Source: Frankia nepalensis (GTDB taxonomy: Bacteria; Actinomycetota; Actinomycetes; Frankiales; Frankiaceae). From it: DNA of 64,000 bases. The stretch is from positions 1 to 64,000 of the forward strand of contig NZ_JADWYU010000115.1 in assembly GCF_016786325.1 (NCBI RefSeq), written 5' to 3'. Positions 30,163 through 46,876 of this stretch are shown piece by piece. The notes under the pieces were generated by a model. That model had not been told where the DNA came from. It made no database searches and saw nothing but the letters and a program-made list of their open reading frames with translations. The position numbers and the translations under genes are program-made. Every line of letters starts with the position of its first letter. Within the stretch, counting starts at the first letter, position 1.

Positions 30163-30360
30163 GCCCGTCACCTCCGCCGCTCCCGCGGCACACTCTCCCA
30201 CGCCCCATCCCGGTTCGTTCCAGTGGACGACGCCCTGCCAACGGCCCGAGCCGGGCCCACCCGAGGCGGCACGCCCCGCGCCAGGGCTGGGCCGGGCCGC
30301 GTCACCGGCCGGGCCTCGTCACCGAGCGGACAGAGACACCAGAGCGTGATCGTCTTTCGG

Positions 30361-30372: not shown

Positions 30373-31062
30373 GTGTCACTGCGCATCGTGCTTGCCGACG
30401 ACTCCCTGATCGTGCGCGAGGGCGTGCGCGGGATGCTGGACAGCCAGCCCGGTCTCGAGGTCGTCGGGACCTGCGCGGACCTGGACTCCCTGCTGGCCTC
30501 GGTGGCGGAGCTCGCTCCGGACGTGGTGGTGACCGACGTGCGGATGCCGCCGACGAACACCGACGAGGGCATTCGCGCCGCCGCGCAGCTGCGGGCCAGC
30601 CACCCGGGGGTCGGTGTCGTCGTCCTGTCCCAGTACGCGGACCCCGAGTACGCCCTGAATCTCCTCGAACACGGCAGCGGCGGGCGGGCGTACCTGGTGA
30701 AGGACGCGGTCGGCGAGCCGGGACAGCTGGCCGGCGCGGTGCGCGCCGTGGCGGCCGGCCGGTCCGTGGTCGACCCCGCCGTCGTGGAGGCGCTGGTGGC
30801 CGCGCGGGCGGCGCCGAAGGCCTCTCCGCTGGCCACGCTCACCGAGCGGGAGCACGCCGTGCTGGCGCAGATCGCGCAGGGCAAGAGCAACGCCGCCGCC
30901 GGCGCGGCCCTGTACCTGAGCGAGCGCGCGGTCGAGAAGCACATCAACACCCTGTTCGCCAAGCTGGGCCTCGCGGCGGAGGCGGACACGAACCGCCGGG
31001 TCAAGGCGGTCCTCATCTACCTGGCCGAGGACCGCGGCCCCAACCGGCTGGCCGCCCGGTAG
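30373..31062 (+). CDS. NarL/FixJ-type response regulator
   Basis: The 229-residue DNA-binding regulator has a receiver domain (LADDSLIVREGVRGML acidic pair, phospho-acceptor Asp in DVVVTDVRMPP, LSQYADPEYA, Lys in YLVKDAV) and a LuxR-type helix-turn-helix (LTEREHAVLAQIAQGKSNAAAG...SERAVEKHINTLFAKLGL). The RMPPT.TDEGI and GVVVLSQYADPEYAL blocks closely match the receiver of the adenylate cyclase fusion at 39770-41320, so the two are paralogues. It precedes a receiver-only protein and converges with a DesK-type histidine kinase (31643-33802), a plausible phosphodonor. Confidence 0.93.
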   Translation: MSLRIVLADDSLIVREGVRGMLDSQPGLEVVGTCADLDSLLASVAELAPDVVVTDVRMPPTNTDEGIRAAAQLRASHPGVGVVVLSQYADPEYALNLLEHGSGGRAYLVKDAVGEPGQLAGAVRAVAAGRSVVDPAVVEALVAARAAPKASPLATLTEREHAVLAQIAQGKSNAAAGAALYLSERAVEKHINTLFAKLGLAAEADTNRRVKAVLIYLAEDRGPNRLAAR

Positions 31063-31642: not shown

Positions 31643-33802
31643 CTACTGCTCACGGGCCGGCAGCGGCACGCTGCCGCGCACGCGGGTACCGGCGCCGGGC
31701 GACGACTCGACCTGGACGTTTCCCCCGAAGGCGCCCACCCGGTCGCGCATGTTCTCGAACCCGTGGCCAGCGGTCGCCGCCGGGTCGAAGCCGGCGCCGT
31801 CGTCGGCCACCTCGAACCGGATCGCGCCGTCCTCGGCGATCACAGTGATCATCACCTCGGCGTCGGCGCCCGCGTGCTTGCCGGCGTTCTGCAGCGCCTC
31901 GAGGCAGCAGAAGTAGACAGCGGCCTCCAGGTCAGGCGGGTAGCGGTCCGGGCCTGCCTCGACGAAGCAGTCCAGCGGGCCTCTGGTGGCCGCCGCCCGC
32001 AGCGCCGGGGCGAGGCCGTGGTCGCGCAGCAGCGGCGGGTAGATGCCGTGCGCCAGCTCCCGCAGCGCCCCCGCCGCGGAGCGGACGTCCGCGTGCAGGC
32101 CGGTCAGGAGCGGGCCGAGAGCCGCCGGGTTGGTCTCGGCGACCTGCGCCGCGAGCCCCACCTTCACCGAGAGGCCTACGAGGTGCTGCTGGGCGCCGTC
32201 GTGCAGGTCGCGTTCCAGGCGGCGGCGAGCGGCGTCGGCGGTGGTCACGATGCGTGCCCGGGACGCGACCAGCTCGGCGTTGCGCTCCCGCAGCTGCTCC
32301 AGCGACTCCTGCAGGGCGCTGTCGAGCGACAGGTTGTGCAGCGCGAGGCCCACCTGCCGGGCCAGCTCCACCAGCACCCGGTCCTCGGCCGGGGTGAACG
32401 GGCCCGCCGACGGCGGCCGGCGCACCACCAGCAGCCCGAGCAGGCGGCCCAGGTGGGTGATCGGGGCGACACGCACCAGCTCGTCGCCGGCCCGCAGGCC
32501 GGGCAGCCACATCGCGATCCAGGTGTTGCCGCCGGTCCTGGCGCTGGTGACCACGGCCCACTCGCGGTCGCCGAGCGTCAGCCGGGCGGCGGGCCGCTCG
32601 GGCAGGCTGACCATCCGGGCCAGCGTGCCGTCACCACCCGTCCAGATCTCGGCGCCCGCCGGCCCGAGGGTGGCCCGCAACAGCTCGGTGAGCTGCAGAA
32701 ACAGCTCATCCATGGGGACGGACCTGGTCATCCTGGTGCCGAACGTCGCGAGCAGCCGGTCCGGCGGCAGCGCGGCACCGCGCACCGCGCGGTCCGCGAC
32801 GCCGGCCAGCCAGGACCGGGCGGGCAGCGCGAGCACCGCGCATACGAAGGCCGCCAGCAGCGAGAGCGTGAGGATCTCCCGCTCGCCGGCGCCGGGCCGG
32901 CGCCCGAGCCCGAGCACGAGGGCCAGGTAGACCACGGCCACGCCCACCGCGAGCCCGGCGACGGTGACGCCCTCGACGAAGGCGCGCGGCCCGTACCGGG
33001 CCAGCCGGGGATGCGCCCCGGCCGCCATGGCGAACGGCACCAGCACCCAGGCGGCGAGCACCGCCGGCGCGGGGTCGGCCGGAAGATCCAGCAGCAGGCT
33101 GCCGGCGCCGACGACCGCCGCGGCGGCGACGGCGACGACCGTGCCCGCCCCGGTCCACAGCAGCGCCCACCTGGTCCTGCTGCCCGTACCCGCCCCGGCC
33201 TGGCCGCGTGCCGAGCCGTCGGTCCGAGGGCTGTGCAGGTTGACGAGCACCAGGTGGCAGGCCGCCACATACAGCGCGCCGAGGGCGGCCAGGGCAGCCA
33301 GCGCCGGCGCGTACGCCGCCGAGCCCGGCGCGACGACGACGGCGACGGCCGTGGCCCCGGCGGCCAGCAGGCCCGCGAACCCGAGCCGGCCGACGCCCAC
33401 GAGCGCGCCGTCGGACGGGACGGCCAGCGCGAGCGCCCAGACCGCGACCGCGAAGGCCGCCAGCCGCGGTTCCAGCAGCGCGCCGGCCTGGACGGCGGCG
33501 ACCACCGCGGCGACCCAGGCGAGCCGGCGCGGCCGGGCGGACCGGGCGACGACGGCGAGCACGGCCCAGCTGGCGATCGAGGCCAGCCCGACCGTGCGCA
33601 CGGCGTCGTCGAGCGGCTGGTCACCGGCCAGTGGCGGGGCGTCCGCCGTGCCGACGAGGCGCGGCCCGGCGAGCGCCACCGCGAACGCCGCCAGGAGGAG
33701 GAGGGTGGGCAGCCACGCCAGCGCTCGCGTGGCAACGCCGGAGAGGCCGCGGGCGACGGGCACGCCGACGGCTGGCGTGGTACTCGGAGTGGGGCCGGTC
33801 AT
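31643..33802 (-). CDS. DesK/NarX-type membrane sensor histidine kinase
   Basis: The 719-residue protein begins with about ten hydrophobic segments (residues 25-330, for example WLPTLLLLAAFAVALAGP), then a GAF-like region (LLRATLGPAGAEIWTGG, ITHLGRLLGLLVVRRP), a short coiled coil (LQESLEQLRERNAEL), a HisKA_3 domain with the phospho-His in RRRLERDLHDGAQQH (near residue 533), and an HATPase domain (EALQNAGKHAGA, EVADDGAGFDP, GHGFENMRDRVGAFGG). It is the last gene in a run that includes the REC-cyclase, ABC ATPase and two permeases, separated from the permease by 6 bp. The N-terminal helices may sense the membrane or the transporter. Possible partners are the three receiver proteins nearby. Confidence 0.93.
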   Translation of the reverse strand: MTGPTPSTTPAVGVPVARGLSGVATRALAWLPTLLLLAAFAVALAGPRLVGTADAPPLAGDQPLDDAVRTVGLASIASWAVLAVVARSARPRRLAWVAAVVAAVQAGALLEPRLAAFAVAVWALALAVPSDGALVGVGRLGFAGLLAAGATAVAVVVAPGSAAYAPALAALAALGALYVAACHLVLVNLHSPRTDGSARGQAGAGTGSRTRWALLWTGAGTVVAVAAAAVVGAGSLLLDLPADPAPAVLAAWVLVPFAMAAGAHPRLARYGPRAFVEGVTVAGLAVGVAVVYLALVLGLGRRPGAGEREILTLSLLAAFVCAVLALPARSWLAGVADRAVRGAALPPDRLLATFGTRMTRSVPMDELFLQLTELLRATLGPAGAEIWTGGDGTLARMVSLPERPAARLTLGDREWAVVTSARTGGNTWIAMWLPGLRAGDELVRVAPITHLGRLLGLLVVRRPPSAGPFTPAEDRVLVELARQVGLALHNLSLDSALQESLEQLRERNAELVASRARIVTTADAARRRLERDLHDGAQQHLVGLSVKVGLAAQVAETNPAALGPLLTGLHADVRSAAGALRELAHGIYPPLLRDHGLAPALRAAATRGPLDCFVEAGPDRYPPDLEAAVYFCCLEALQNAGKHAGADAEVMITVIAEDGAIRFEVADDGAGFDPAATAGHGFENMRDRVGAFGGNVQVESSPGAGTRVRGSVPLPAREQ

Positions 33803-33808
33803 CGTCGC

Positions 33809-36283
33809 TCACTCGGCTCGCAGGACGTCCGGCACGTGCAGGCGGGCCGCGCGCCGGGCCGGAACGGACGCCAGCAGACCCACCGCGAGGACGGCGGTCG
33901 GCACGGCGAGCGCCAGCGCGAGCGCCGCGACCGGCGGCACGTAGATCAGCGGAGTGCTCGTCGCGACCGCCCGCCACAGCGCGCGGCCGAGCAGCACGCC
34001 GACCGGCACGCCCACGGCCAGGCCGATGGCCCCGATCACGGCGGCCTGGGTCAGCACGATCGCCCGCGCCTGCCACCGGGTCGTGCCCAGCGCGCGCAGC
34101 ACCGCGACCTCGTGCCGGCGGCGGCGCACCCCGACGAACAGGGCGTGCCCGACCGCGCCGACGGCGAGCACCCCCAGGAAGGCTCCCAGAAAGCGCGGCA
34201 GGACGGCGACGCCGCGGAAGCGGTCCTGCGCCTCAAGCGGGAGCTCGTCGCCGACGACGAAGAAGGCGTCGTCGGCGCCGACGGCCTCGTTGAGCCGGTC
34301 ACGCACGGCGAGCGTGCTGGCCCCGGGCCGCAGCTCGACGCGGACCTCGTGGTACTTGAAGCCGCCGTCGAACAGCGCGTGGTAGCCACTCGCGCTCACC
34401 CAGCCGCCCTCGTCGTAGGTGGTGTGCGGGTCCTGGGGAACGAAGGCCAGCCCGGTCAGCCGCATCGGCGTGCCGTCCGCTGGGTCCCGCCCGGCCACGG
34501 TGAGGACGTCGCCCACCCTGGCGCCGGTCCGACGCGCGACGCCGGGCGCCAGCACGATCTCGCCCGGCGTGGCCGGCAGCCGGCCGGCGAGCACCTGGAC
34601 CGACGACGGGCGTCCGGCCACCTCGTCGAGGCTGAACACCGTCACCGGCCGGCGCTCGACCGTCGCGACGCCGACCCGGGTGTCGTTGACCGCGACCACG
34701 TCGGGGTCGGCCGCCGCGGCGCGCACGACGTCGTCGGCCGGCCCGAAGTCGCGGTCGTTGAAGCCGACGATGCTCACGACCGCGAAGGTCTGCCCGAACC
34801 GGGCGGGGTTGGCCGCCGCGTCGGCGACACCGGCCTGGAACGTCAGCGAGCCCACCACGCCGAGGACGCCGACGACCGCGCCCACCAGCGCCGGCCGGAC
34901 GGCGGCGCCGGCCCGGCCCGGTTCAAGCGCGAACCGCACGCCCGTCAGCACCGGGACCGGGAGGCCGAGGCGGTAGGCCAGGCGCGCGGCCGCGGATCCG
35001 CGCGGCCGGGCCGGCCGGACGCCGCCCACCGACGTGGCGAAGGCCGTCGTGGTCGCCGCGACGGCCACCAGCAGCAGCGTCACGCCCGAGACGGCGAGGA
35101 TCACCGAAACGTCGAGGTCGACGCCCGGCTCGGGCTCGACCAGCGCCGCGGAGCCGAGCGGGAACAGCGGCGAGACGGCCACCGCCGCGCCCGCCCCGGC
35201 GAGCAGCCCGGCGGCCGTGGCCAGGACCGGCCCGGCGGCGGCCGCGACGGTGGCCTGCCGGGTGGTCAGACCGAGCGTGCGCAGCACGCCGAGATCGGCG
35301 GTCGCGCCGATCACGAGCCGGACGACGGCCTGCCCGAGCAGGACCACCGCGGCGAGGTAGGCCGCCAGCGCGAAGGCGGCCAGCCCCGCGGCTTCGAACG
35401 TCGTGGTCTCGCGGAACTTCCGCTGGTCCTCGACGACGTTGAGGGTCTCGACGGGATGGGTCGCCAGCCGGTCGAGCGCCTCCTGGAACGCGGGTATCCC
35501 GGCGGCGCCGGCGCTAAGCCGGACCATGGCGTTCACGATGGCCGCGTCACCGGTGGCGCCGACCAGGTTCTCCCGGTAGGTCTCGGTGAACGCGAAGGTG
35601 GTCCCGAGGCCGCCAGGAGAGTCCTGGGGTTCGCGCGTCCACCAGCCGGACCGGACGACACCGACGATCGTGAGCGGCTGGCGCGGGCCCGTGTAGGAGA
35701 TCGGCTCCTCGTTCAGGGCGGCGGCGTCGGTCGCCGCGGGCGTCGGCAGGAGCGCCGTCACCGTGTCGCCGACCGACAGCCCGGTCGTCTCGACGAAGCG
35801 TGGGCTGACGACGGCCTCGTCGGCCCGGGCCGGGTCGGGGAGCCGGCCGGCCAGCACCGCGGGGCGTTCGACCGTCCGCATGGTCTCGTCGTCCATCGCG
35901 GGAGACAGAACCTCGATCTCCGGGTGGCCTTCGATGGCATAGCTGCCGGTGAGCAGGATGGTGCCCACCGCCTCCACGCCGGGCAGGCGACGCACGGCCT
36001 CCCAGTCGAAGCCGGGCTCGTTCGGCACGGCGGCCACCGTGGCCGGCGACGTGACGGCGAGGATCCGGTCGAGCGCCGAGGCGCCGCGGCGGGCGCCGGC
36101 CGCGGCGGTCATGACAGTGCCGGTGGCCAGCGCGACCAGCAGTGCGAGCATGAGCAGGGACAGCCAGCGGCGCCGCAGGTCGAGCCGCAGCCACGCCCAG
36201 ACCGGCCGCCAGACGCGCGCCACCGGACTACCCCCGACCCGCGTGCGCCCATCCGTGGCCGCCTCCGAAGTTCTGATTGTCAT
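33809..36283 (-). CDS. FtsX/MacB-type ABC permease, copy 1
   Basis: The 824-residue permease has one helix near the N-terminus (WLSLLMLALLVALATGTVMTAAAG), a large outside domain, and two FtsX core blocks: one in mid-protein (FALAAYLAAVVLLGQAVVRL, DLGVLRTLGLTTRQ) and one at the C-terminus (VRRRRHEVAVLRALGTTRWQARAI, VGVPVGVLLGRALW). Proteins of this kind work with a LolD/MacB ATPase to move lipids or peptides or to do mechanical work at the envelope. It is about as long as, and very similar to, the gene directly upstream (36290-38791). The 37-nt junction (last codons, stop, spacer, next start) is identical after both genes, which marks a tandem duplication. Translationally close to the histidine kinase. 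Confidence 0.92.
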   Translation of the reverse strand: MTIRTSEAATDGRTRVGGSPVARVWRPVWAWLRLDLRRRWLSLLMLALLVALATGTVMTAAAGARRGASALDRILAVTSPATVAAVPNEPGFDWEAVRRLPGVEAVGTILLTGSYAIEGHPEIEVLSPAMDDETMRTVERPAVLAGRLPDPARADEAVVSPRFVETTGLSVGDTVTALLPTPAATDAAALNEEPISYTGPRQPLTIVGVVRSGWWTREPQDSPGGLGTTFAFTETYRENLVGATGDAAIVNAMVRLSAGAAGIPAFQEALDRLATHPVETLNVVEDQRKFRETTTFEAAGLAAFALAAYLAAVVLLGQAVVRLVIGATADLGVLRTLGLTTRQATVAAAAGPVLATAAGLLAGAGAAVAVSPLFPLGSAALVEPEPGVDLDVSVILAVSGVTLLLVAVAATTTAFATSVGGVRPARPRGSAAARLAYRLGLPVPVLTGVRFALEPGRAGAAVRPALVGAVVGVLGVVGSLTFQAGVADAAANPARFGQTFAVVSIVGFNDRDFGPADDVVRAAAADPDVVAVNDTRVGVATVERRPVTVFSLDEVAGRPSSVQVLAGRLPATPGEIVLAPGVARRTGARVGDVLTVAGRDPADGTPMRLTGLAFVPQDPHTTYDEGGWVSASGYHALFDGGFKYHEVRVELRPGASTLAVRDRLNEAVGADDAFFVVGDELPLEAQDRFRGVAVLPRFLGAFLGVLAVGAVGHALFVGVRRRRHEVAVLRALGTTRWQARAIVLTQAAVIGAIGLAVGVPVGVLLGRALWRAVATSTPLIYVPPVAALALALAVPTAVLAVGLLASVPARRAARLHVPDVLRAE

Positions 36284-36289
36284 CGTCGC

Positions 36290-38791
36290 TCACTCGGCTC
36301 GCAGGACGTCCGGCACGCGCAGGCGGGCCGCGCGCCGGGCAGGAACGGACGCCAGGACACCCACGGTGACGATCACGGCCGGGACGACGAGCGCGAGAGC
36401 GGCCGTCGCGAGGGGCGGCACGTAGATCAGCGGAGTGCTCGTCGCGATCGCCCGCCACAGCGCGCGGCCGAGCAGGACGCCGACCGGCACGCCGACGGCC
36501 AGGCCGACGAGCACGATGACGGCGGCCTGGGTCAGCACGATCGCCCGCGACTGCCAGCGGGTGGTGCCCAGGGCGCGCAGCACCGCGACCTCGTGCCGGC
36601 GGCGGCGCACCCCGACGAACAGGGCATGCCCGACCGTGCCCACGGCGAGCACACCCAGGAAGGCCCCGAGGAGGCGGGGCAGGGCGGCGATGCCCAAGAA
36701 GCGGTTCATCGCGTCGATCGGTAGCTCGTCGGTCAGGACATAAAAGACGTCGCCGGCGCCGGCGGCCTCGTTGAGCCGGTCGCGCACGGCCGGCGCGCTG
36801 GCGCCCGGCCGCAGCTCGACGTGGAACTCGTGGTACTTGAAGCCGTCCGGGAACAGCGCGCGATAGCCGGCCGCGCTCACCCAGCCGCCCTGGTTGTAGT
36901 CGGTGTGCGAGTCCTGCGGGACGAACGCCAGCCCGGTCACCCGCATCGGCCTGCCGTCCGCCAGGCTCCGCCCGGTGACGGTGACGATGTCGCCCACCCT
37001 GGCGCCGGCCCGGCTGGCGACGCCGGGTGCCAGCACGATCTCGCCCGGGGTCGCCGGCAGGCGGCCGGACAGCACCGGGACCGACAGCGGGCGGCCGGTG
37101 CCCGGGTCGAGGCTGAACAGCGTCACCGGCCGGCGCTCGACGGTCGCGACGTCGACCAGCGTGTCGTTGACCGCGAGCACGTCGCGGTCGGCGGCCACGA
37201 GGCGCCTGATGTCGTCGGCCGGCGCGAAGTCCTCGCCGCCCCAGCCGACGACGCTTCCAACCTCGAAGCTCTGCCCGAATCGGGCGGGGTTGGCCGCCGC
37301 GTCGGCGACGCCGCTCTGGAATGTCAGCGAGCCCAGCACGCCGAGGACGCCGACGACCGCGCCGACCAGCGCCGGGCGCACCGCGGCACCGGCCCGGCCC
37401 GGTTCGAGCGCGAACCGTAGTCCGGTCAGCACCGGGGCCGGAAGGCCCGCGCGGTAGGCCAGCCGCGCGAACCCCGACCCGCGTGGCCGCGCGGGCCGGA
37501 TCCCGCGCACCGAGGCGGCGAACGCCGTCGTGGTCGCCGCCACGGCGACCAGCAGCACCGTCACGCCTACCACCGCGGCAAGCACCGCGAGGTCGACGTC
37601 GAAGCCCGGCCTGGGCTCGACGTCCGCCGCGGAGCCGATGGGGAACAGCGGCGAGACGGCCGCCGCCGCGACGGCCCCGGCAAGCGCCCCGGCGGTGGTG
37701 GCGAGCACGGGGCCGGCCGCGGCCGCGACGGTGGCCTGCCGGGTGGTCAGACCGAGCGTGCGCAGCACGCCGAGGTCGGCGGTCGCGCCGATCACGAACC
37801 GGACGACGGCCTGCCCGACCAGGACCACGGCGGCGAGGTAGGCCGCCAGCGCGAACGCGGCCAGCGCGCCGGCCTCGAAGGTGGTGGTGGCCCGGTAGTC
37901 CGCCGCCTCCTTGACGATGTCGAAGGCGTCGACCGGGTGTTTCGCCAGCCGGTCGAGCGCGGCCTGGAAGGCCGGTATCCCGGCGGCGCCGTCGCGCAGC
38001 CGGACCAGGCCGACCACAAAGGCCTGGTCGCCGGTGCCGACCAGGTTCTCCCGGTAGGCCTCGGTGAACCCGTAGGTGGTCTGGATGCCGCCGAGGTAGG
38101 CCGGATCGTCGTGGAACCACCAGAAGGAGCGGACAACGCCGACGATCGTGAGCCGCTGGCGCGGACCAGAGAACGAGACCGAGGCCGGACCGTTGTTGGC
38201 CAACATGGCGTCTGTCTCGGCCGGGGTCGGCAGGATCGCGGTCACGGTGTCCCCCACCGACAGCCCTGAGTGCTCAAGGAAGCGTGAGCTGACGACCGCC
38301 TCGTCCACCCGGGCCGGGTCCGCGAGCCGGCCGGCCAGGACGACCGGGCGCTCGACCGTCCGGTTGATCTCGGTGTCCATGGGCACGCCGCCGATTTCCA
38401 CCCCGGGGTGGCCTTCAATGGAAAAGGTGCCGGACGCCAGGAACGTGCCCACGGCCGCCACGCCGGGCAGGCGCCGCGCGGCCTCCCAGTCGAAGCCGGG
38501 CCCGCCAGGCCCGCCCGGCACCGGCATCAGCGTGACGGGCAGCGTGACGTCGAGCATCCGGTCGAGGGCGGAGGCGCCGCGGCGGGCGCCGGCCGCGGCG
38601 GTCATGACCGTGCCCGTGGCGAGCGCGACCAGCAGCGCGAGCGCGAGCAGGGACAGCCAGCGCCGCCGCAGGTCCAGCCGTAGCCACGCCCAGACCGGGC
38701 GCCACAGGCCGGCCACCGGGCCCGTGACGCCACGCGGCCTTGGGCCGGGCGCATTGTCCGCGGCTCGATCGGACCTCTGCTTCGTGGTCAT
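36290..38791 (-). CDS. FtsX/MacB-type ABC permease, copy 2
   Basis: The 833-residue paralogue of the protein at 33809 has the same order: N-terminal helix (WLSLLALALLVALATGTVMT), large extracytoplasmic region, mid FtsX block (DLGVLRTLGLTTRQATVAAAAGP) and C-terminal FtsX block (RHEVAVLRALGTTRWQSRAIVLTQ). Differences are concentrated in the outer domain (for example FSIEGHPGVEIGGVPMD versus YAIEGHPEIEVLSPAMD), which is where different partners or cargo would be contacted. The two proteins probably form a heterodimer on the single ATPase encoded 8 bp upstream (38799-39605). Confidence 0.92.
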   Translation of the reverse strand: MTTKQRSDRAADNAPGPRPRGVTGPVAGLWRPVWAWLRLDLRRRWLSLLALALLVALATGTVMTAAAGARRGASALDRMLDVTLPVTLMPVPGGPGGPGFDWEAARRLPGVAAVGTFLASGTFSIEGHPGVEIGGVPMDTEINRTVERPVVLAGRLADPARVDEAVVSSRFLEHSGLSVGDTVTAILPTPAETDAMLANNGPASVSFSGPRQRLTIVGVVRSFWWFHDDPAYLGGIQTTYGFTEAYRENLVGTGDQAFVVGLVRLRDGAAGIPAFQAALDRLAKHPVDAFDIVKEAADYRATTTFEAGALAAFALAAYLAAVVLVGQAVVRFVIGATADLGVLRTLGLTTRQATVAAAAGPVLATTAGALAGAVAAAAVSPLFPIGSAADVEPRPGFDVDLAVLAAVVGVTVLLVAVAATTTAFAASVRGIRPARPRGSGFARLAYRAGLPAPVLTGLRFALEPGRAGAAVRPALVGAVVGVLGVLGSLTFQSGVADAAANPARFGQSFEVGSVVGWGGEDFAPADDIRRLVAADRDVLAVNDTLVDVATVERRPVTLFSLDPGTGRPLSVPVLSGRLPATPGEIVLAPGVASRAGARVGDIVTVTGRSLADGRPMRVTGLAFVPQDSHTDYNQGGWVSAAGYRALFPDGFKYHEFHVELRPGASAPAVRDRLNEAAGAGDVFYVLTDELPIDAMNRFLGIAALPRLLGAFLGVLAVGTVGHALFVGVRRRRHEVAVLRALGTTRWQSRAIVLTQAAVIVLVGLAVGVPVGVLLGRALWRAIATSTPLIYVPPLATAALALVVPAVIVTVGVLASVPARRAARLRVPDVLRAE

Positions 38792-38798
38792 AGCGGTC

Positions 38799-39605
38799 TC
38801 AGTCGACGATCCGGCCGTCGCGCATCGGCACGACGCGCCGCGCGCCGGCCGCGACGTCCGCGGAGTGGGTGATCACGATGATCGTCTGGCCGTCGGCGTG
38901 CAGCCGGCGGAACAGCTCGAGGATCTCCAGCCCGCCCTCGCTGTCGAGCGCGCCGGTCGGCTCGTCCGCCAGCAGCAGCGTCGGGGAGTTGACCAGCGCC
39001 CGCGCGATCGCCAGCCGCTGGCGCTGGCCACCGGACAGCATGGACGGAAGCTGGTCGGCACGGTCGGCCAGGCCCAGCAGGTCGAGCAGGTCCCGGGCCC
39101 TGGACTCGGCGGCGCGCCGGCGCATCCCGCCGATCGACGCCGGCAGGACGATGTTCTGCAGCGCGGACACGCCGTCGATGAGGTTGAAGAACTGGAAGAC
39201 GATGCCGACGTGGTGCCGCCGGAACCGGGCGAGCCAGTCGGGGTCGCGTTCGCTGATCCGCTCGCCGACGACGTCGACGGTGCCGTCGTCGATGGTTTCC
39301 AGGCCCGCGATCACGTTCAGCAGGGTCGACTTGCCGCACCCGGACGGGCCGGTGACGGCGACGAACTCGCCGGCCGCGATGTCCAGGTCGACGCCGCGCA
39401 GCGCCCGCACCGGCGCGAGATCGGCATCGAAGGTGCGCCGCACGCCCCGCAGCCGTACGACCGGCGCCGCGTCCCCGCCGCCCACCGCGACCCCCCCGAG
39501 ATCGGCCGCGGTGGGCGTGCTGGGAACGGCGCCGCCGACAGCGGCGGCGGTACCGGCGCCGGGCTCCGGCCCACCCGCGCCGCCGAGCAGGTCCGTACTG
39601 GTCAC
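38799..39605 (-). CDS. LolD/MacB-type ABC ATPase
   Basis: The 268-residue ATPase has Walker A GPSGCGKST near residue 85, the Q-loop in GIVFQFFNLIDGVSALQN, signature MLSGGQRQRLAIARAL, Walker B LLLADEPTGALDSEGG and switch VITHSADVAAGARR. The ADEPTGALDS and FQFFNLI blocks are typical for ATPases that partner FtsX-like permeases. The first 45 residues are Gly/Ala/Pro-rich and unconserved, so an internal start is possible. It lies 8 bp ahead of the permease pair, and the cyclase fusion gene ends 164 bp upstream, in the same direction. Confidence 0.93.
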   Translation of the reverse strand: MTSTDLLGGAGGPEPGAGTAAAVGGAVPSTPTAADLGGVAVGGGDAAPVVRLRGVRRTFDADLAPVRALRGVDLDIAAGEFVAVTGPSGCGKSTLLNVIAGLETIDDGTVDVVGERISERDPDWLARFRRHHVGIVFQFFNLIDGVSALQNIVLPASIGGMRRRAAESRARDLLDLLGLADRADQLPSMLSGGQRQRLAIARALVNSPTLLLADEPTGALDSEGGLEILELFRRLHADGQTIIVITHSADVAAGARRVVPMRDGRIVD

Positions 39606-39769: not shown

Positions 39770-41320
39770 CTACTCATCGCGCGCTCGGACATCGCTCCGG
39801 CCGCGGGCGGGCCACCACCGGCGGCCGCGGCCGGATACCCTCGCGCCCGCCCCGACGACCGGCCTGACGGCGAGCCCAGCCGGGGCGTCCACCGTCCCCA
39901 CGACCAGGGAATCTCCCACGGGCGCATCGACCGGCGGGGCGCATTCCACCAAGCGTGGAAAGTCGGTCGGCCCCGAGGCGAGGGAACTCCCGCCGAGGTC
40001 CGGCGGGCGCAGCTGAAACGGGCGCACCGGGGTGGTGCGACCTTTGACCGTGCGCGCGGGCATCTCCCAGACGTCGAACTCCCGATGCCCGCGCAGCGCG
40101 GCGGCGGTGGCATCACTGATAACCGTCATCCCGGCGGGCCGGGCGAGGTCGCCCAACCGCTGGGCGAGGTTCACCGTGTCGCCGACCAGGGTGTATTCCA
40201 GCCGTTCCTCGCTGCCGAGCAGGGCCGCGGCCACCGGGCCGCTGCACACGCCGATGCCGAGCCCGAACGGTTCCAGGCCGTCCCCGGCCCAGGCGTTGTC
40301 GAGGCTGGCCTGCCGGTCGTGCATCGCGCTCGCCGCGCGGCAGGCCGCCAGGGCGTGGTCGGGACGCGCGAACGGGGCGCCGAACACGGCCATCACCGCG
40401 TCGCCGACGTACTGCATCACCGTCCCGCCGTGGCCGAGGATCGCCGCGTTCATCTCGCGGCGGTGGGCGTTGAGCTGGCCGGCCAGCACCGCCGGGTCGG
40501 TGTACTCCGCGATCGTGGAGTAGCCGCGCACGTCCGAGATGAGCACCGTGACGTCGAGCCGCTCGGTGCGCCCGGTGGCGGCGCCGGTGTCGGTGCGCAG
40601 CTTCTCGGCGAGCCCCGACGGGAGCAGCCGGGACAGCGTCTCCCCCTGCTCCTCGCGGCGCAGCAGCGCGGTGTGCAGCAGCCGCAGCCGGCGCAGCGCG
40701 CCGCGCCGCCCGGCACTCGCGCCCTCGGCCAGCCGCAGGAAGATCTCCTCGATCTCGCCGTTCACCGCCTCCGGGGTGCCGCCACGCGCGGCCGCGATCG
40801 CCTTCACCGGCCGGCCGGCGGCCACGTCGGCGAGCAGTTCCTCCTGCTCGGCCGTCAGCTCCCCGCGCCGGGTCACCGGCGAGAGCATCGTGGCGACGAT
40901 CTGCGGGTCGAGCATGGAGCCGCCGGCCGCGACCTCCCGGATGGCCCTCGAGAGCCGGTCCGAGTCGCCCACCTGGTCCTTGAGCAGGTAGGCGAACCCG
41001 GCGGCGCCGTCGGCGAGCAGGGCGATCGCGTACTCGGGGTCGTCGAACTGCGACAGCACCACCACCCCCGTGCCCGGGTGCCGGCGGCGGACCTCCTTGG
41101 CGCCGGCGATCCCGTCGTCCTGGAAGGTGGGCGGCATCCGGATGTCGGTCACGACGACCTGCGGTCGCAGCTCGAACGCCGCCCGGACCAGCTCGTCACG
41201 GTCGGCCGCGACCGCGACGACCCGCACGGCCGGGTCGATGGCCAGCAGGGCGCGAATACCTTCCCGCGCGATGAGGTTGTCATCGGCGAGCAGCACCGTG
41301 ATCGGTTCCATGTCGAACAT
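39770..41320 (-). CDS. Response regulator fused to a class III adenylate/guanylate cyclase
   Basis: The 516-residue protein has a receiver domain (LLADDNLIAREGIRALL, phospho-Asp near 57 in VVVTDIRMPPT, LSQFDDPEYA, YLLKDQVG), then a stretch that resembles a decayed LuxR helix-turn-helix (LTAEQEELLADVAAGRPVKAIA), then a class III cyclase domain from about residue 235 to 410. Both metal-binding Asp are there (VLISDVRGYST and QYVGDAVMAVFGAP), as is the EYTLVGDTVNLAQRLGDLA block with the transition-state Asn and Arg. The substrate may be ATP or GTP. A Gly/Pro/Arg tail of about 100 residues ends the protein. It is divergent from a cyclic-nucleotide-binding gene. The receiver is a paralogue of that at 30373, so phosphorylation by the local kinase could control second-messenger synthesis. 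Confidence 0.9.
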   Translation of the reverse strand: MFDMEPITVLLADDNLIAREGIRALLAIDPAVRVVAVAADRDELVRAAFELRPQVVVTDIRMPPTFQDDGIAGAKEVRRRHPGTGVVVLSQFDDPEYAIALLADGAAGFAYLLKDQVGDSDRLSRAIREVAAGGSMLDPQIVATMLSPVTRRGELTAEQEELLADVAAGRPVKAIAAARGGTPEAVNGEIEEIFLRLAEGASAGRRGALRRLRLLHTALLRREEQGETLSRLLPSGLAEKLRTDTGAATGRTERLDVTVLISDVRGYSTIAEYTDPAVLAGQLNAHRREMNAAILGHGGTVMQYVGDAVMAVFGAPFARPDHALAACRAASAMHDRQASLDNAWAGDGLEPFGLGIGVCSGPVAAALLGSEERLEYTLVGDTVNLAQRLGDLARPAGMTVISDATAAALRGHREFDVWEMPARTVKGRTTPVRPFQLRPPDLGGSSLASGPTDFPRLVECAPPVDAPVGDSLVVGTVDAPAGLAVRPVVGAGARVSGRGRRWWPARGRSDVRARDE

Positions 41321-41499
41321 TCAGCCGGATTCGGCCCGCGGCGCCAAGGAGATCAGCACGGTTCTTCTGGCGTGCTAGCACCCGGTGGCCCGGGGGGTGG
41401 CCGCACAGAATGGCGGCGGCCGGCCGCCTGACCCCAGCCACCGTGGGCGCCTTGCCGGGTTTTCCCAGCTCAGTGGGCCGCGGGTGGCCCGCCCGCGCT

Positions 41500-41527
41500 G
41501 GCAGCACCCGACTCGCGGGGTGCTGCC
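41500..41527. promoter_or_regulatory. 10-bp inverted repeat in the divergent region
   Basis: GGCAGCACCC and GGGTGCTGCC are separated by 8 nt, 50 bp upstream of the -10 box for the cyclic-nucleotide-binding gene. It could be an operator or a stem-loop that ends a transcript; with no gene end here an operator is more likely. Confidence 0.4.
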
Positions 41528-41576
41528 ACCCGGGAAGCAAGCGGTTGACGCCCTCGGCGGCGCATTGCCGCGTCCG

Positions 41577-41582
41577 TAACGT
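41577..41582 (+). promoter_or_regulatory. -10 box of the cyclic-nucleotide-binding gene
   Basis: TAACGT ends 6 nt before an in-frame GTG at 41589. A TTGACG lies 26 bp upstream, too far for a standard -35. The mRNA would then carry a strong ribosome-binding site before ATG 41652. Confidence 0.4.
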
Positions 41583-41651
41583 CTGGCGGTGTCAGCCGGT
41601 CGGCGGGAGTTCCGGAAAAGGCCCGCCACACAATTCCTTTCGGAGGGCATG

Positions 41652-42728
41652 ATGGGAACGCGAGTGGTCGAGTCGAGTGTCATGTCGTTGTCCTGGATTC
41701 CTTCGGAGGCGATCCGGGGATTCGGAAAGCTGCCCTTCTCGCTGGGGGTCAGCCACTATGACGAGCCGCTGCCGGCCCAGGTCGACGACGTCGAGGCGCT
41801 GCGCCGCGCGGACCGGTTCCGGTTCGCCAACCGGCTGTCGGCCGCCGCGACCTTCGGGGATGACGGCGAGGTGCTGGCGTTCCGCTACACGGGCGGCGCG
41901 GTGACCGGGGCGACCACGGTTCGCCTCGGCGGGCTCGGCGCGACGTTCGCCGGCGTCGCCATGCCCGACCTGCGGGCCGAGCCGGTCGTCGGGGACGGCT
42001 GGGTGCGGTTCACGCAGACCGGCGGCGGCCGCACGGCGCTGCCGCTGCCGCGGCAGACCTCCCGGCCGCCGTACTTCCGGCTGCAGAGCCCGGTCACCTG
42101 GTCGACGCTGTCGCTGACCCTGTTCGCCGACGGGCGGGCCGAGTACGACCTGGTCGGCGCGAGCGCCTTCCCCCGGCACTGGGTCTACGACGCCGACGGC
42201 CACCTGGTGCTCAAGTCGGGCATCACCGACTGGGCACGCTGGACCTCGCAGCCCTCGTGGCGGCACACCCCCTGGGGGGACGAGGACTCGCCGGCGCTGG
42301 TGGTCGCCGCCGAGACGGCCCTCGAACGGGAGCTGTCCCACCGGATCATGCGGGCCGGCCAGCGGCCCCAGGTCGACAACCTGGCCGCCGGCACCGAGCT
42401 GGTCCGGCAGGGCACGCCGGGTGACGCGCTGTTCCTGCTCCTCGACGGGGTGCTCGGGGTCGACGTCGACGGCGCGCGGATCGCCGAGGTCGGGCCCGGC
42501 GCGATCGTCGGCGAGCGCTCCCTGCTCGAGGGCGGCCTGCGCACGGCGACCCTGACCGCCCTGACCGCGGTGCGGGTCGCCAGGGCGGGCAGGGACGCCG
42601 TCGACCTCGCGGCGCTGGCCGAGCTGGCCCGCGGGCACCGCCGCGAGGAGGGGAACGGCGCGTCGGGCGGGACCGGCCCCCGGCCGGCGGCGATCCCGGC
42701 GGCGCGCCGCGAGTCGGTGACCGCGTGA
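41652..42728 (+). CDS. Cyclic-nucleotide-binding domain protein with unknown N-terminal domain
   Basis: The 358-residue protein has an N-terminal domain of about 240 residues that I do not recognise (beta-rich, with SWIPSEAIRGFGKLPFSLGVSHYDEPLP and FRYTGGAVTGATTVRLGG) and a cyclic-nucleotide-binding domain near residues 242-318 (LAAGTELVRQGTPGDALFLLLDG, then AIVGERSLLEGGLRTATLTA). The GERSLLEGGLRTAT loop corresponds to the phosphate-binding cassette (Gly-Glu and Arg). ATG 41652 is chosen because GGAGGG lies 4-5 nt upstream; the leaderless GTG at 41589 would add 21 residues. It overlaps the downstream hydrolase gene (GTGA) and is divergent from a cyclase, so it is the likely receptor of that cyclase's product. 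It has no DNA-binding domain that I can see. Confidence 0.85.
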   Translation: MGTRVVESSVMSLSWIPSEAIRGFGKLPFSLGVSHYDEPLPAQVDDVEALRRADRFRFANRLSAAATFGDDGEVLAFRYTGGAVTGATTVRLGGLGATFAGVAMPDLRAEPVVGDGWVRFTQTGGGRTALPLPRQTSRPPYFRLQSPVTWSTLSLTLFADGRAEYDLVGASAFPRHWVYDADGHLVLKSGITDWARWTSQPSWRHTPWGDEDSPALVVAAETALERELSHRIMRAGQRPQVDNLAAGTELVRQGTPGDALFLLLDGVLGVDVDGARIAEVGPGAIVGERSLLEGGLRTATLTALTAVRVARAGRDAVDLAALAELARGHRREEGNGASGGTGPRPAAIPAARRESVTA

Positions 42729-43582
42729 ACGTGCACCTGCTCGGAGTCAGGGGATCGACGCCGGCGCCCGGCGAGCGGTTCGCCCGCTACGGTGGTCACA
42801 CCTCCTGTGTGGCCCTCACCGCGGCGGGCGAGCCGTCCCCGGCGCTGGTGCTCGACGCCGGGACGGGGCTGCGCAACCTCGACGAACTGCTCGGCCCGGC
42901 GCCGTTCCAGGGCACCATCCTGCTGACGCACCTGCACTGGGACCACACCCAGGGCCTGCCGTTCACGCGTTGCCTGGACCGGCCGGACGCGCGCGTCGAC
43001 CTGCGGGTGCCGGCGCAGGGCGGGCGCGGCGCGGCCAGCCTGCTGGCCAGGTCGATGTCGCCGCCGAGCTTCCCGATCGAGATCTCCGGGCTGCGCGGCC
43101 ACTGGAACACCCGGCTCGCGCGCCCGGGCCGGCTCACCGCTCCGCCGCGGTTCACGGTCACGGCGGCCGAGGTCCCGCACAAGGGCGGGCGCACCTTCGG
43201 CTACCGGGTCAGCGCGGACGGGGCGAGCCTCGCCTACCTGCCGGACCACGCGCTCGCGGGCCGGCCGACCAGGGCCGCGCTCGCGCTGGCGGACGGCGCG
43301 GACCTGCTGCTGCACGACGCCTCGAACGGGTTCGGCGAGCGGACGGCGGCCGACGCCTACGGGCACTCGACGATCGACGACGCGATCCGCTTCGCGCGGG
43401 CGTGCCGGGTACGGGCGCTGGTGCTGATCCACCACTCCCCCGGCCGGACCGACGCCGACCTCGACGCGCTCGCGGCCAGGCTCACCGCCGAGGACGCCGA
43501 CGGCCTGACGGTGAGCCTCGGCAGGGAGGGCGACGTGATCCGGTGTGACCAGCCGGCCGCGGCCCCCGTCCACGCCGGCTGA
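42725..43582 (+). CDS. Metallo-beta-lactamase-fold hydrolase
   Basis: The 285-residue protein starts at a GTG that overlaps the preceding stop. It has the metal site motif THLHWDHTQGLPF near residue 68, the N-terminal strand NVHLLGVRGSTPAPG with RYGGHTSC (a block of the PhnP / phosphodiesterase-like branch), LPDHAL for a further metal ligand and LIHHSPGRTDADLD near the C-terminus. Members of this branch cleave phosphodiesters, including cyclic nucleotides. Coupling to a cyclic-nucleotide-binding protein suggests a cyclic-nucleotide phosphodiesterase role, but this is inferred from position only. There is no membrane segment. Confidence 0.85.
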   Translation: MNVHLLGVRGSTPAPGERFARYGGHTSCVALTAAGEPSPALVLDAGTGLRNLDELLGPAPFQGTILLTHLHWDHTQGLPFTRCLDRPDARVDLRVPAQGGRGAASLLARSMSPPSFPIEISGLRGHWNTRLARPGRLTAPPRFTVTAAEVPHKGGRTFGYRVSADGASLAYLPDHALAGRPTRAALALADGADLLLHDASNGFGERTAADAYGHSTIDDAIRFARACRVRALVLIHHSPGRTDADLDALAARLTAEDADGLTVSLGREGDVIRCDQPAAAPVHAG

Positions 43583-43696: not shown

Positions 43697-46600
43697 GTGG
43701 CGATCGTCCTGTCCGTGCTCGACCGGGTGTGCTGGCGCGGCCAGCCCGTGGTCGGCGAACGCCCACGGGCGCTGCTCGCCGCGCTGGTCGCCGGTGGCGG
43801 TCAGGTGATGGCGAGCGAACGCCTCGTCGAGGCGGTCTGGGGCGAGGAGTCCCCGGGCAACGCCGGCAAGGCGCTGCAGGTCCTGGTCTCGCGGACGCGC
43901 ACCCAGTGTGGGCCCGACTCGGTCGTCTGGGATGGCCAGGGCTACCGGCTTGGCGTCCCGCCCGACCAGGTGGACGCCTTCCGGCTGCGTGACCTGGCCG
44001 CGCGGGCGCGCCGCGGCCTCGCGACCGGTGATCTCGCCGAGGCGCGCGACGCGGCGACCGAGGCACTGGCGCTCACCGAGGCGCTGGTGGCGCCGCCCGA
44101 CGGGGACGACCGCCCGCTGGCGGGGCTGCACCGCGACGCCGCGGCGCGCCGCGCCGAGCTCGTCGGGCTGCTGGGCCGCGCGCTGAGCCTGGCCGGCGAG
44201 CACGCCGCCGCCCTCCCGCCGCTGGCCGAGGCCGCGGGCCGGGACCCGTCGGACGAGGCGGTGCTGGCCTGCCTGCTGCGCAGCGAGGCGGCGGCGCGCG
44301 GCACGAGCGCGGCGCTGGACCGGTACGAGCGGTACCGGGCCGAGCTGCGCGAGCGGCTCGGGGCCAGCCCCGGCGATCCGGTCGACCGGGTGTACCGGGA
44401 GCTGCTGCACCTCGACAGGCCGGTGCGCGAGGGCCTGCACCACGAGACGACCCCGCTGGTCGGGCGCGACGATGACCTGCGGCGCCTGCGCGCGCTGCTG
44501 AGCACCTCCCGGGTGGTGTCGATCGTGGGCGCCGGCGGCCTGGGCAAGACTCGGCTCGCGCACGCGCTCGGCCGGTCGGCCGAGCACCCGGTGGTGCATT
44601 TCGTGGGCCTGGTGGGCGTCACGACGCCGGAGGACCTGATCGGCGAGCTCGGTTCGGCGCTGGGGGTCCGCGACTCGGTGCACGGGCGCCGGACGATGAC
44701 CCCCCAGCAGCGCGCCGACGCGCGCGGGCGGATCGCCCAGCAGCTCGGCGCGGCGCCCAGCCTGCTGATCCTCGACAACTGCGAGCATCTCGTCGACGCG
44801 GTGGCCGACCTGGTCGCCTTCCTGGTGGCCACCACCGGCGACCTGCGGGTGGTCACCACGTCGCGGACGCCGCTGGCGATCAGCGCCGAGCATGTCTACT
44901 CCCTCGACGTGCTCGGCCATGCGGCGGCCGTCCAGCTGTTCCGGCAGCGGGCCGTCGCGGCGCGGCCCGACGTCCGGCTCCCTGACGAGGCGGTGGCCGA
45001 CCTCGTGACCCGCCTCGACGGGCTCCCGCTGGCGATCGAGCTGGCGGCCGTCAAGGCGCGGGTGATGTCCGTCGAGGAGATCCGCCGCCGGTTGGCGGAC
45101 CGGTTCGCCCTGCTGCGCGGTGGGCTCAGGAACGCCCCCGACCGGCACCGCACGCTGCTCGCCGTCATCGACTGGTCGTGGAACCTGCTGGCGGAGCCCG
45201 AGCGCCGGGCGCTGCGCTGGCTGTCGGTCTTCCAGGACGGCGCCACCCTCGCCACCGCCGAGGTGGTGCTCGGCCCGGACGCGCTCTCCGCGGTGCAGGC
45301 GCTGGTGGACCAGTCGCTGCTGACGGTCGTCGAGACGACCGCCGGCGTGCGCTACCGGATGCTGGAGACGGTGCGCGAGTTCGGCCGCCTGCGTCTTGGC
45401 GAGTCAGGCGAACAGGATCAGGCGTACGCGGCGCGGCTCGCCTGGGCGGTCCGCTATGCCCGCGCCGCGGCGGAGCAGCTGTTCAGCCCGGCCCAGTTCA
45501 CGGCCATCGACGTGCTCGCCGCCGAGGAGACCAATCTGGCGGACGAGCTGCGCCGCGCGCTCGCCGCCGCCGACCCTCGGGCCGCGGTCCAGCTGCTGTT
45601 CGGCCTGGGCGGGCTGTGGTCCGTCAGGGGCGAGCACCTCAGGGTGGCCGCGCTGGCCGGCGCGACCGGTGAGGCGGTGTCGGGCTGGGAGCCGCCGCCG
45701 GAACTCGCCGACTGCACCCGGGCCGCCCTCGCGGTCGTCCTGCAGAACGCGATGATCGGGGCGGCGGACAGCATCGGTCCCATCCGCGACCTGCTCGTCC
45801 GGCTGGGGACGGACAGCGGCGGCGACCGCCGGGTCAACGCCGTGGTCAGGGTGCTCCTGCTCACGCAGGAGACCTCGCCCGCCCGGGAGCCGGTACCAGG
45901 TCAGCGGCTGCGGGACCGGCTGGACGCGCTGGCCGGCTCGGCGGACCCGTGCGTGGCGACGGCGGCCCTGCAGTGGAAGAGCCATCTGCTCGAGAACGTC
46001 GGCGACCCCGCCGAGGCGATCGACGCGGCCGAGCGGGCGCTGGCCCTGATGGGGCCGCCGACCGACGGGCCGTGGCAGGCGGCGCTGCTGCGGGCCCATC
46101 TGGCCGGGCTCCACATGCAGCAGGGCAATCCGGCCGCGGCCGTGCCGCACGCCCACGCGGCGATACCGGTGCTCGACCGCCTCGGCGCGCTCGACGACCT
46201 GATCCAGCTCCACTCGCTCCTGGCACTGAGCGCGCTGGCCGCCGGACGCCTCGACGAGGCCGCGGACCGGCTCGACCAGGTGGCCACGCTGAAGGAGCCC
46301 GACGGCCTGTTCGGCGGCGTGTTCGCGCATGGGATCGGGGTCGGGGAGCTCGCGCTGGCGCGGGGAGACCCGGCCGCCGGGCTCGCGGCGTACCGGACCT
46401 CGGCGGCGCGCATGCACGCCCTGTGCATCCCCGGCCACGTGACGACCGGCGTGGAGCCCTGGACGCTGTTCGGCGACGCGGGCCTGCTGGCCGCGCTCGC
46501 CTACCACGCGACCGGCGAGGCCGAGGCCGCCGAAGGGGCGGAGCTGTTCCGGGCCTGCCGCGTCCGGACGTCGTGCGCCCTGGAGCCGGGCCGGCCGCAC

Positions 46601-46876
46601 CTCGACTATCCGGTGTGCGGCATGGCGCTGTTCGCCCTCGGCGCCTGGGGGCTGCTGCGGTCGGCGATGCCCGCGGCGGACGCGGTCCGGCTGCTGGTGC
46701 TCGCCGAGCGGTTCGCCTACAACCGCATGGTCCCGACGATGTCCTGGGAGCGGATCGCGCTCCGCGCCGAGGAGCGGGCACCCGGCCGGATCGCCGCGAT
46801 CCGCGCGGAGTACGGCGAGGCGCGCGGGCCCGAGCTGGTCGACGAGGCGCGCCGCGTCGTCGACCAGCTCGGCTGA
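43697..46876 (+). CDS. BTAD/NB-ARC/TPR transcriptional regulator (AfsR/SARP-like)
   Basis: The 1059-residue regulator has an OmpR-type winged helix at its N-terminus (RALLAALVAGGGQVMASERLVEAVWG, ALQVLVSRTR), a BTAD helical domain to about residue 240, an NB-ARC ATPase with P-loop SIVGAGGLGKTRLA near 278, Walker B LLILDNCEHLVDAV and VVTTSRTPL, the GLPLAIELAA motif, and a helical repeat region to the C-terminus that resembles TPR. Proteins of this type activate antibiotic or metabolic genes after ATP-driven assembly. No biosynthetic cluster is in view; the closest possible target is the convergent exporter at 47006-48825. The GTG start at 43697 follows a -10 box by 6 nt. Confidence 0.9.
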   Translation: MAIVLSVLDRVCWRGQPVVGERPRALLAALVAGGGQVMASERLVEAVWGEESPGNAGKALQVLVSRTRTQCGPDSVVWDGQGYRLGVPPDQVDAFRLRDLAARARRGLATGDLAEARDAATEALALTEALVAPPDGDDRPLAGLHRDAAARRAELVGLLGRALSLAGEHAAALPPLAEAAGRDPSDEAVLACLLRSEAAARGTSAALDRYERYRAELRERLGASPGDPVDRVYRELLHLDRPVREGLHHETTPLVGRDDDLRRLRALLSTSRVVSIVGAGGLGKTRLAHALGRSAEHPVVHFVGLVGVTTPEDLIGELGSALGVRDSVHGRRTMTPQQRADARGRIAQQLGAAPSLLILDNCEHLVDAVADLVAFLVATTGDLRVVTTSRTPLAISAEHVYSLDVLGHAAAVQLFRQRAVAARPDVRLPDEAVADLVTRLDGLPLAIELAAVKARVMSVEEIRRRLADRFALLRGGLRNAPDRHRTLLAVIDWSWNLLAEPERRALRWLSVFQDGATLATAEVVLGPDALSAVQALVDQSLLTVVETTAGVRYRMLETVREFGRLRLGESGEQDQAYAARLAWAVRYARAAAEQLFSPAQFTAIDVLAAEETNLADELRRALAAADPRAAVQLLFGLGGLWSVRGEHLRVAALAGATGEAVSGWEPPPELADCTRAALAVVLQNAMIGAADSIGPIRDLLVRLGTDSGGDRRVNAVVRVLLLTQETSPAREPVPGQRLRDRLDALAGSADPCVATAALQWKSHLLENVGDPAEAIDAAERALALMGPPTDGPWQAALLRAHLAGLHMQQGNPAAAVPHAHAAIPVLDRLGALDDLIQLHSLLALSALAAGRLDEAADRLDQVATLKEPDGLFGGVFAHGIGVGELALARGDPAAGLAAYRTSAARMHALCIPGHVTTGVEPWTLFGDAGLLAALAYHATGEAEAAEGAELFRACRVRTSCALEPGRPHLDYPVCGMALFALGAWGLLRSAMPAADAVRLLVLAERFAYNRMVPTMSWERIALRAEERAPGRIAAIRAEYGEARGPELVDEARRVVDQLG

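Follow-up and report, generated by a model that had tools for sequence, protein, structure and literature searches.

The window analysed here, positions 1-64,000 of Frankia nepalensis NZ_JADWYU010000115.1 (64 kb, in whose coordinates all positions are given), contains a divergent three-gene cluster that probably encodes a dedicated circuit for a cyclic mononucleotide (cNMP). The circuit would comprise a kinase and transporter input, a response-regulator/class III nucleotidyl cyclase fusion (RR-cyclase), a sensor protein that combines an N-terminal orphan domain with a cyclic-nucleotide-binding domain (CNBD), and a class II-like phosphodiesterase. The usual picture of cNMP signalling in bacteria is that of a global pool with Crp-like regulators as its readers and, to our knowledge, outputs other than transcription factors are known in few cases. 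Here, synthesis, sensing and removal would lie in one cluster, probably under two-component control, and the putative output domain has no name in the databases consulted. The module is spread over a phylum to which both antibiotic producers and nitrogen-fixing symbionts belong. The cluster offers a clean, testable system for local cNMP signalling, in which the function of the orphan domain is a defined question.

Gene layout and conservation of the cluster

The direct evidence consists of gene content, domain content, conserved gene order, conservation of catalytic residues and co-occurrence. The three genes that a sequence-only reading of this DNA had joined into a possible make-sense-degrade module are all present where that reading had placed them, with the following parts:

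39770..41320, minus strand: RR-cyclase, 516 aa (Pfam; orthologues; invariant catalytic residues)
40976..41296, minus strand: receiver domain of the RR-cyclase, NarL-like, with phospho-acceptor Asp59, acidic pair and Lys114 conserved (Pfam, NarL-type models, alignment)
40706..40873, minus strand: linker resembling a degenerate LuxR-type helix-turn-helix (HTH) (inferred; alignment to a NarL-type regulator)
40034..40555, minus strand: class III cyclase catalytic domain, with metal residues Asp263/Asp307, base residues Gln303/Thr377 and transition-state residues Asn384/Arg388 (Pfam, alignment)
41649 or 41652 to 42728, plus strand: cyclic-nucleotide-binding sensor protein gene (Pfam cNMP_binding; homologue alignment)
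41652..42314, plus strand: orphan N-terminal domain of the sensor, mostly beta-strand (no Pfam, NCBIfam or PDB relative; conserved family; structure model)
42378..42602, plus strand: CNBD of the sensor, with the phosphate-binding cassette GERSLLEGGLRTAT intact (Pfam, alignment, fold match)
42725..43582, plus strand: metallo-beta-lactamase (MBL)-fold hydrolase with the motif THLHWDH, of the RNase Z / class II phosphodiesterase branch (Pfam, curated models, fold matches)

The RR-cyclase and sensor genes are divergent, and the stop of the sensor gene overlaps the start of the hydrolase gene by 4 nt at 42725-42728; both features had been proposed earlier, and the overlap is real, recurring in 20 of 29 same-strand pairs (separate or fused frames) as by far the commonest arrangement. 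The GTG at 41589 is probably 60-63 nt too early as the start of the sensor gene. An ATG at 41649 or 41652 is favoured instead, because homologues align from there, behind a GGAGGG ribosome-binding site at 41642-41647, and the orphan domain is therefore approximately 220 residues long. The earlier description of a domain belonging to no nameable family thus stands, while its length of 240 residues is probably an overestimate.

We surveyed 393 genomes of the class and 376 genomes drawn from the phylum, with families named by collection labels (e.g. f19). The orphan domain is present in 30 of the 393 class genomes and the RR-cyclase linker (residues 131-250) in 32; both occur together in 23, against approximately 2.4 expected under independence, an excess that phylogeny inflates. 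In the phylum sample, a profile search recovered the orphan domain in 30 of 376 genomes, representing 24 genera and a prevalence of about 8% of sampled actinobacterial genomes. Neighbourhoods were counted in a six-frame recount over 59 loci, 44 of which have at least 3.5 kb on each side. The orphan domain is fused to a CNBD in 57 of the 59 copies, and of the 44 loci, 24 have an RR-type cyclase within 4 kb of the sensor, 33 have a class III cyclase of any type at a distance of up to about 4 kb, and 23 have the hydrolase no more than 2.5 kb away. Given the 5 class III cyclases in the 10.7-Mb window genome, the chance of finding one within 4 kb of a random gene is only about 0.4%, to be compared with 33 of 44 loci that come from related genomes and are not independent events.

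The divergent order of RR-cyclase, sensor and hydrolase is maintained in several families of the class at roughly 50-75% identity, and the same divergent gene set is also found in more distant genomes of the phylum. In other loci, where the RR-type is absent, another class III cyclase stands beside the sensor, either as a divergent multidomain protein (L056, L058, L059) or on the same strand (L110, L114, L124, L127). In one locus (L109), sensor and hydrolase form a single open reading frame of 591 codons, on a single draft contig in which an assembly error is possible. This swapping of cyclases, the 4-nt overlap and the fusion point to a functional association rather than mere proximity.

Our search found no plasmid copies of the module. 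In the genomes of family f19 (L040-L054) it occupies a fixed site beside truA, rplQ, rpoA and 30S ribosomal protein genes, and in four loci (L100, L104, L106, L109) the gene immediately before that of the sensor, in the same orientation, encodes a membrane protein with a C-terminal cupredoxin-like domain.

Predicted functions of cyclase, sensor and hydrolase

The RR-cyclase matches Pfam Response_reg over residues 9-115 (E 5e-15, 56 bits against a cut-off of 30.2) and Guanylate_cyc over residues 256-429 (E 5e-17, 62 bits against a cut-off of 21.9), and its orthologues are 64-90% identical. The phospho-acceptor Asp59 is kept in 29 of 29 receivers, and the residues of the acidic pair, the conserved Ser/Thr and the Lys in 27-29 of 29. 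In the catalytic domain, both metal aspartates are retained in all 28 aligned RR-type cyclases, and the transition-state Asn and Arg are each present in 26 of the 26 that could be scored; the loss of metal ligands in homologues, which the sequence-only reading had singled out as evidence that would tell against it, was not observed. By domain and residues, the RR-cyclase qualifies as a class III nucleotidyl cyclase with predicted activity. RR-cyclases align with a NarL-type regulator (44-46% over approximately 205 aa), and in the linker no GerE match passes the Pfam threshold; the linker resembles a degenerate LuxR-type HTH.

The base-specifying pair of RR-type cyclases is Gln (28/28) with Thr or Ser (26/26). 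Rv0386 of M. tuberculosis also carries a Gln at the same position and produces cAMP. Canonical base pairs are Lys/Asp for ATP and Glu with Cys, Ser, Thr and others for GTP (PMC4215837). The product of cyclases with the Gln/Thr pair may even differ from cAMP. L062 and the Frankiaceae loci L063-L066 carry a second RR-cyclase paralogue, which is about 61-64% identical and has no sensor, hydrolase or ABC genes nearby.

The sole Pfam domain of the sensor is a C-terminal cNMP_binding domain (E 2e-14, above cut-off). Few residues are left after it and a Crp/Fnr-type C-terminal HTH is absent, in agreement with the earlier claim that this protein lacks a DNA-binding domain. The ribose-binding Glu of the CNBD is conserved in 60 of 60 rows and the phosphate-binding Arg in 59 of 61, and the cassette presents Arg followed by Thr in 56 of 61. 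In the eukaryotic PKG cassette, Arg followed by Thr favours cGMP. The best sequence matches of the sensor CNBD are PKG-type domains, and a structure search with the predicted model matched its fold to PKA, PKG and CRP domains (Z about 14). Both cAMP and cGMP are compatible with these features as the messenger.

Searches of Pfam, NCBIfam and PDB sequences gave no match to the orphan domain, not even when a 33-member profile was used; a profile search of this region, proposed earlier as a check, thus leaves it without a named relative. The AlphaFold2 model of the sensor (whole-protein pLDDT 82) predicts an N-terminal domain made mostly of beta-strands with few short helices. With the whole model as query, Foldseek/VIA returned matches for the CNBD only and none for the orphan domain, and a viral structure library gave no convincing match for the N-terminal part. 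Sequence profiles of the domain, run against PDB, hit a short stretch of a carbon monoxide dehydrogenase (E 0.023) as well as antibody chains; these were set aside as chance-level noise, and weak cupin matches of full-length sensor proteins were likewise discarded as noise that probably reflects the CNBD barrel. In the phylum set, Trp16, Pro18, Asp38, Asn61, Gln123, Gly126, Trp151, Ser172, Pro-Arg-His-Trp 175-178 and Pro-Trp 208-209 are invariant, and these residues look like a binding or catalytic site. Since the sensor has no DNA-binding domain, the orphan domain would be its natural output. We tentatively propose, at somewhat short of an even chance, that it is an undescribed phylum-wide cNMP output domain, either an enzyme or a small-molecule-binding domain, and that the cluster is a self-contained, two-component-driven circuit with maker, reader and eraser encoded together.

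The hydrolase matches Pfam Lactamase_B_2 (PF12706; E 5e-21, 76 bits), and its THLHWDH motif agrees with the [T/S]HXHXDH signature of the atypical class II cAMP phosphodiesterases Rv1339, CpdA and YhfI (PMC9293780). The HXHXDH motif and the other metal-binding His/Asp positions are kept in 31 of 31 hydrolases, with T or S preceding the motif in 24 of 31. The predicted structure (pLDDT 85) matches the folds of RNase Z, YhfI (TMt 0.80), PhnP, PqqB and, lower down, yeast PDE1. Motif and fold place the protein in the RNase Z/class II phosphodiesterase branch, bearing out its earlier assignment to a phosphodiesterase-like branch, and its gene context makes cNMP hydrolysis the best inference for its putative activity.

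From these data we infer the biochemical activities, the step from kinase to receiver, the direction in which the signal travels and the kind of output, as follows. A membrane histidine kinase with an FtsX-type ABC transporter would sense an envelope signal and phosphorylate the receiver of the RR-cyclase, and phosphorylation would favour dimerisation of the cyclase and formation of a 3',5'-cyclic nucleotide, with cAMP or cGMP as the likeliest products. This messenger would bind the C-terminal CNBD of the sensor and switch its N-terminal orphan domain as output, while the translationally coupled hydrolase, as an atypical class II-like phosphodiesterase, would remove the signal locally. The make-sense-degrade reading holds as far as gene content and residue conservation are concerned, with a gene set kept across the phylum, a swappable cyclase, a hydrolase of the appropriate branch and intact metal ligands. 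The data support its extension to a putative system of kinase/transporter input, cyclase, orphan-domain reader and optional eraser.

Alternative readings and known systems

Several observations weigh against a dedicated circuit of this kind. No cyclase lies near the orphan-domain gene in 11 of 44 loci, and the hydrolase is not beside the sensor in 21 of 44; being absent from about half of the loci, it is an optional part of the module. Besides those of the cluster, the window genome encodes 4 class III cyclases and 7 CNBD proteins, such that insulation is not guaranteed, and a Frankiaceae RR-cyclase paralogue occurs without a sensor, so the RR-cyclase type is not always dedicated to one. The Gln/Thr (or Ser) base pair fits neither the Lys/Asp nor the Glu/X pattern, and common ancestry confounds the co-variation seen between the three gene trees (r 0.77-0.87 after dereplication). 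Furthermore, the hydrolase reaches only 49.1 bits against the NCBIfam phosphodiesterase equivalog model NF041851 (cut-off 400), and its substrate could be another phosphodiester; its best curated-model score, against the RNase Z model TIGR02651, is 63.6 bits, below the cut-off of 292.95. Because both scores fall far below the curated cut-offs, the hydrolase is classed as a relative of Rv1339/CpdA/YhfI and of RNase Z, not as an equivalog of either.

The patchy presence of the hydrolase and its curated-model scores would also suit a make-sense pair only, with a hydrolase that acts elsewhere, for instance on the ends of RNA, on other cyclic phosphates or on a metabolite from the pathway of the orphan domain, and the diverse substrates of its MBL branch (PhnP, PqqB and RNase Z are among the fold matches) point the same way. 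Its class II phosphodiesterase signature, the overlap of exactly 4 nt that couples it to the CNBD gene in the majority of pairs, the one sensor-hydrolase fusion and the fact that the remaining conserved parts all concern cyclic nucleotides nonetheless make this reading unlikely. It might instead be supposed that there is no dedicated circuit, with the RR-cyclase of the kinase/ABC run feeding a general cAMP pool for Crp-type regulators and the CNBD/hydrolase pair being a separate reader that is adjacent by chance. The other cyclases and CNBD proteins of the genome would accommodate such an arrangement, as would three genomes in which the RR-cyclase run and the sensor/hydrolase pair are 10-20 kb apart, but the head-to-head adjacency recurs in distant families, another class III cyclase adjoins the sensor in several lineages that lack the RR-type, and a candidate operator is common to the divergent genes; we consider it quite unlikely.

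A class III cyclase with a CNBD effector is also the plan of Pycsar (PycC with PycTIR or PycTM), in which light the cluster would be an antiphage system making a cyclic pyrimidine on infection, with the sensor as toxic effector and the hydrolase as safety valve. The cyclase domain does score 64 bits against PADLOC PycC models, and the CNBD 35 bits against its counterpart in TIR-type Pycsar effectors, but these matches are confined to the common class III cyclase and CNBD folds. We rejected membership in Pycsar on the grounds that the sensor has no TIR or transmembrane killer domain and that its PADLOC effector match is limited to the CNBD. No PADLOC model matches the hydrolase, environmental sensing is suggested by the receiver and the histidine kinase, and the fixed chromosomal site beside truA, rplQ and rpoA in f19, together with the lack of a plasmid copy, is unlike mobile defence genes, which renders an antiphage role very improbable. 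Apyc1 is an MBL-fold cNMP hydrolase (PMC9117128); in contrast to Pycsar and Apyc1, the module described here is chromosomal and has a two-component input, and its hydrolase is cell-encoded and coupled to the sensor rather than phage-encoded. On its predicted components, the module would be best described as a new form of cNMP signalling and not as Pycsar.

The closest studied analogue in working principle is the XC_0250/XC_0249 pair of Xanthomonas campestris, a cGMP cyclase with a linked CNBD-GGDEF effector (PMC3770947). In both cases a class III cyclase gene is linked to one encoding a CNBD protein with a separate output domain, a putative one in the module, and PDB 5h5o, the CNBD of a bacterial phytopathogen cGMP pathway, is among the best fold matches of the sensor CNBD (Z 14.4). 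In XC_0249, however, the CNBD is N-terminal and the output is a GGDEF domain, whereas the sensor CNBD is C-terminal and accompanied by the orphan domain, in which no GGDEF or other Pfam match was found. The canonical transition-state residues of the RR-cyclase are missing from the Xanthomonas cyclase, the input differs as well, and PMC3770947 mentions no phosphodiesterase, in contrast with the linked hydrolase of the module.

Rv1339, CpdA (C. glutamicum) and YhfI share with the hydrolase the PF12706 fold and the [T/S]HXHXDH motif (PMC9293780). The hydrolase differs from them in falling below the NF041851 cut-off and in being the coupled partner of a CNBD protein. A literature search, which did not cover most subscription papers, found no paper describing a module that combines a cyclase, a CNBD protein and an MBL hydrolase. 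Earlier proteins joining a receiver to a cyclase exist, and these response regulators with class III cyclase output have the same order of receiver and cyclase domains. The RR-cyclase is set apart from them by its NarL-like receiver, its degenerate HTH-like linker and the position of its gene at the head of a run with ABC transporter and kinase genes.

Divergent promoter and neighbouring genes

The gap between the divergent genes and the genes surrounding the cluster are as follows:

41321..41648 (328 bp), no strand: divergent promoter gap, with two dyads bearing GGTGCT/AGCACC half-sites, a candidate shared operator (conserved in close relatives)
38799..39605, minus strand: ABC transporter ATPase, downstream of the RR-cyclase (annotation; adjacent in relatives)
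36290..38791, minus strand: FtsX/MacB-type ABC permease (annotation; adjacent in relatives)
33809..36283, minus strand: second, paralogous FtsX/MacB-type permease (annotation)
31643..33802, minus strand: sensor histidine kinase (GAF, HisKA_3, HATPase_c), candidate input kinase (domain matches)
30373..31062, plus strand: NarL-type response regulator (REC-GerE), candidate second target of the kinase (domain matches)

The first dyad of the divergent gap, GTGCTAGCAC, lies at 41372-41381, and the second, GGCAGCACC-N10-GGTGCTGCC, at 41500-41527, with 0 occurrences of the long dyad expected by chance in the window. Both are kept in close relatives, except that dyad 1 is altered in L036, and similar GGGTGC..GCACCC dyads are found in the divergent gap of other families. 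It is plausible that one operator serves both divergent arms.

The RR-cyclase gene heads a same-strand run that continues with the ABC ATPase, the two permeases and the histidine kinase, past which the NarL-type regulator is encoded on the opposite strand. In most relatives, too, the RR-cyclase is followed by ABC and permease genes, a histidine kinase is present in the neighbourhood of 13 of 55 loci, and in L069 the RR-cyclase, ABC, two permease, kinase and NarL regulator genes are found in a row. The presence of the kinase at 31643-33802 within this run makes the two-component input suggested earlier more likely, and kinase and transporter together would plausibly sense a signal related to the envelope or to transport.

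A large BTAD/AfsR-like regulator (winged helix, BTAD, NTPase, TPR) is encoded after the hydrolase at 43697-46876 on the plus strand and is not kept there in relatives. A phytoene-dehydrogenase-like FAD oxidoreductase, encoded in the window at 28585-30201 on the minus strand, recurs near the sensor gene in L057, L101, L109, L112 and L118. Its copies in distant lineages are 34-63% identical to the window copy, and it could be a clue to the pathway of the orphan domain.

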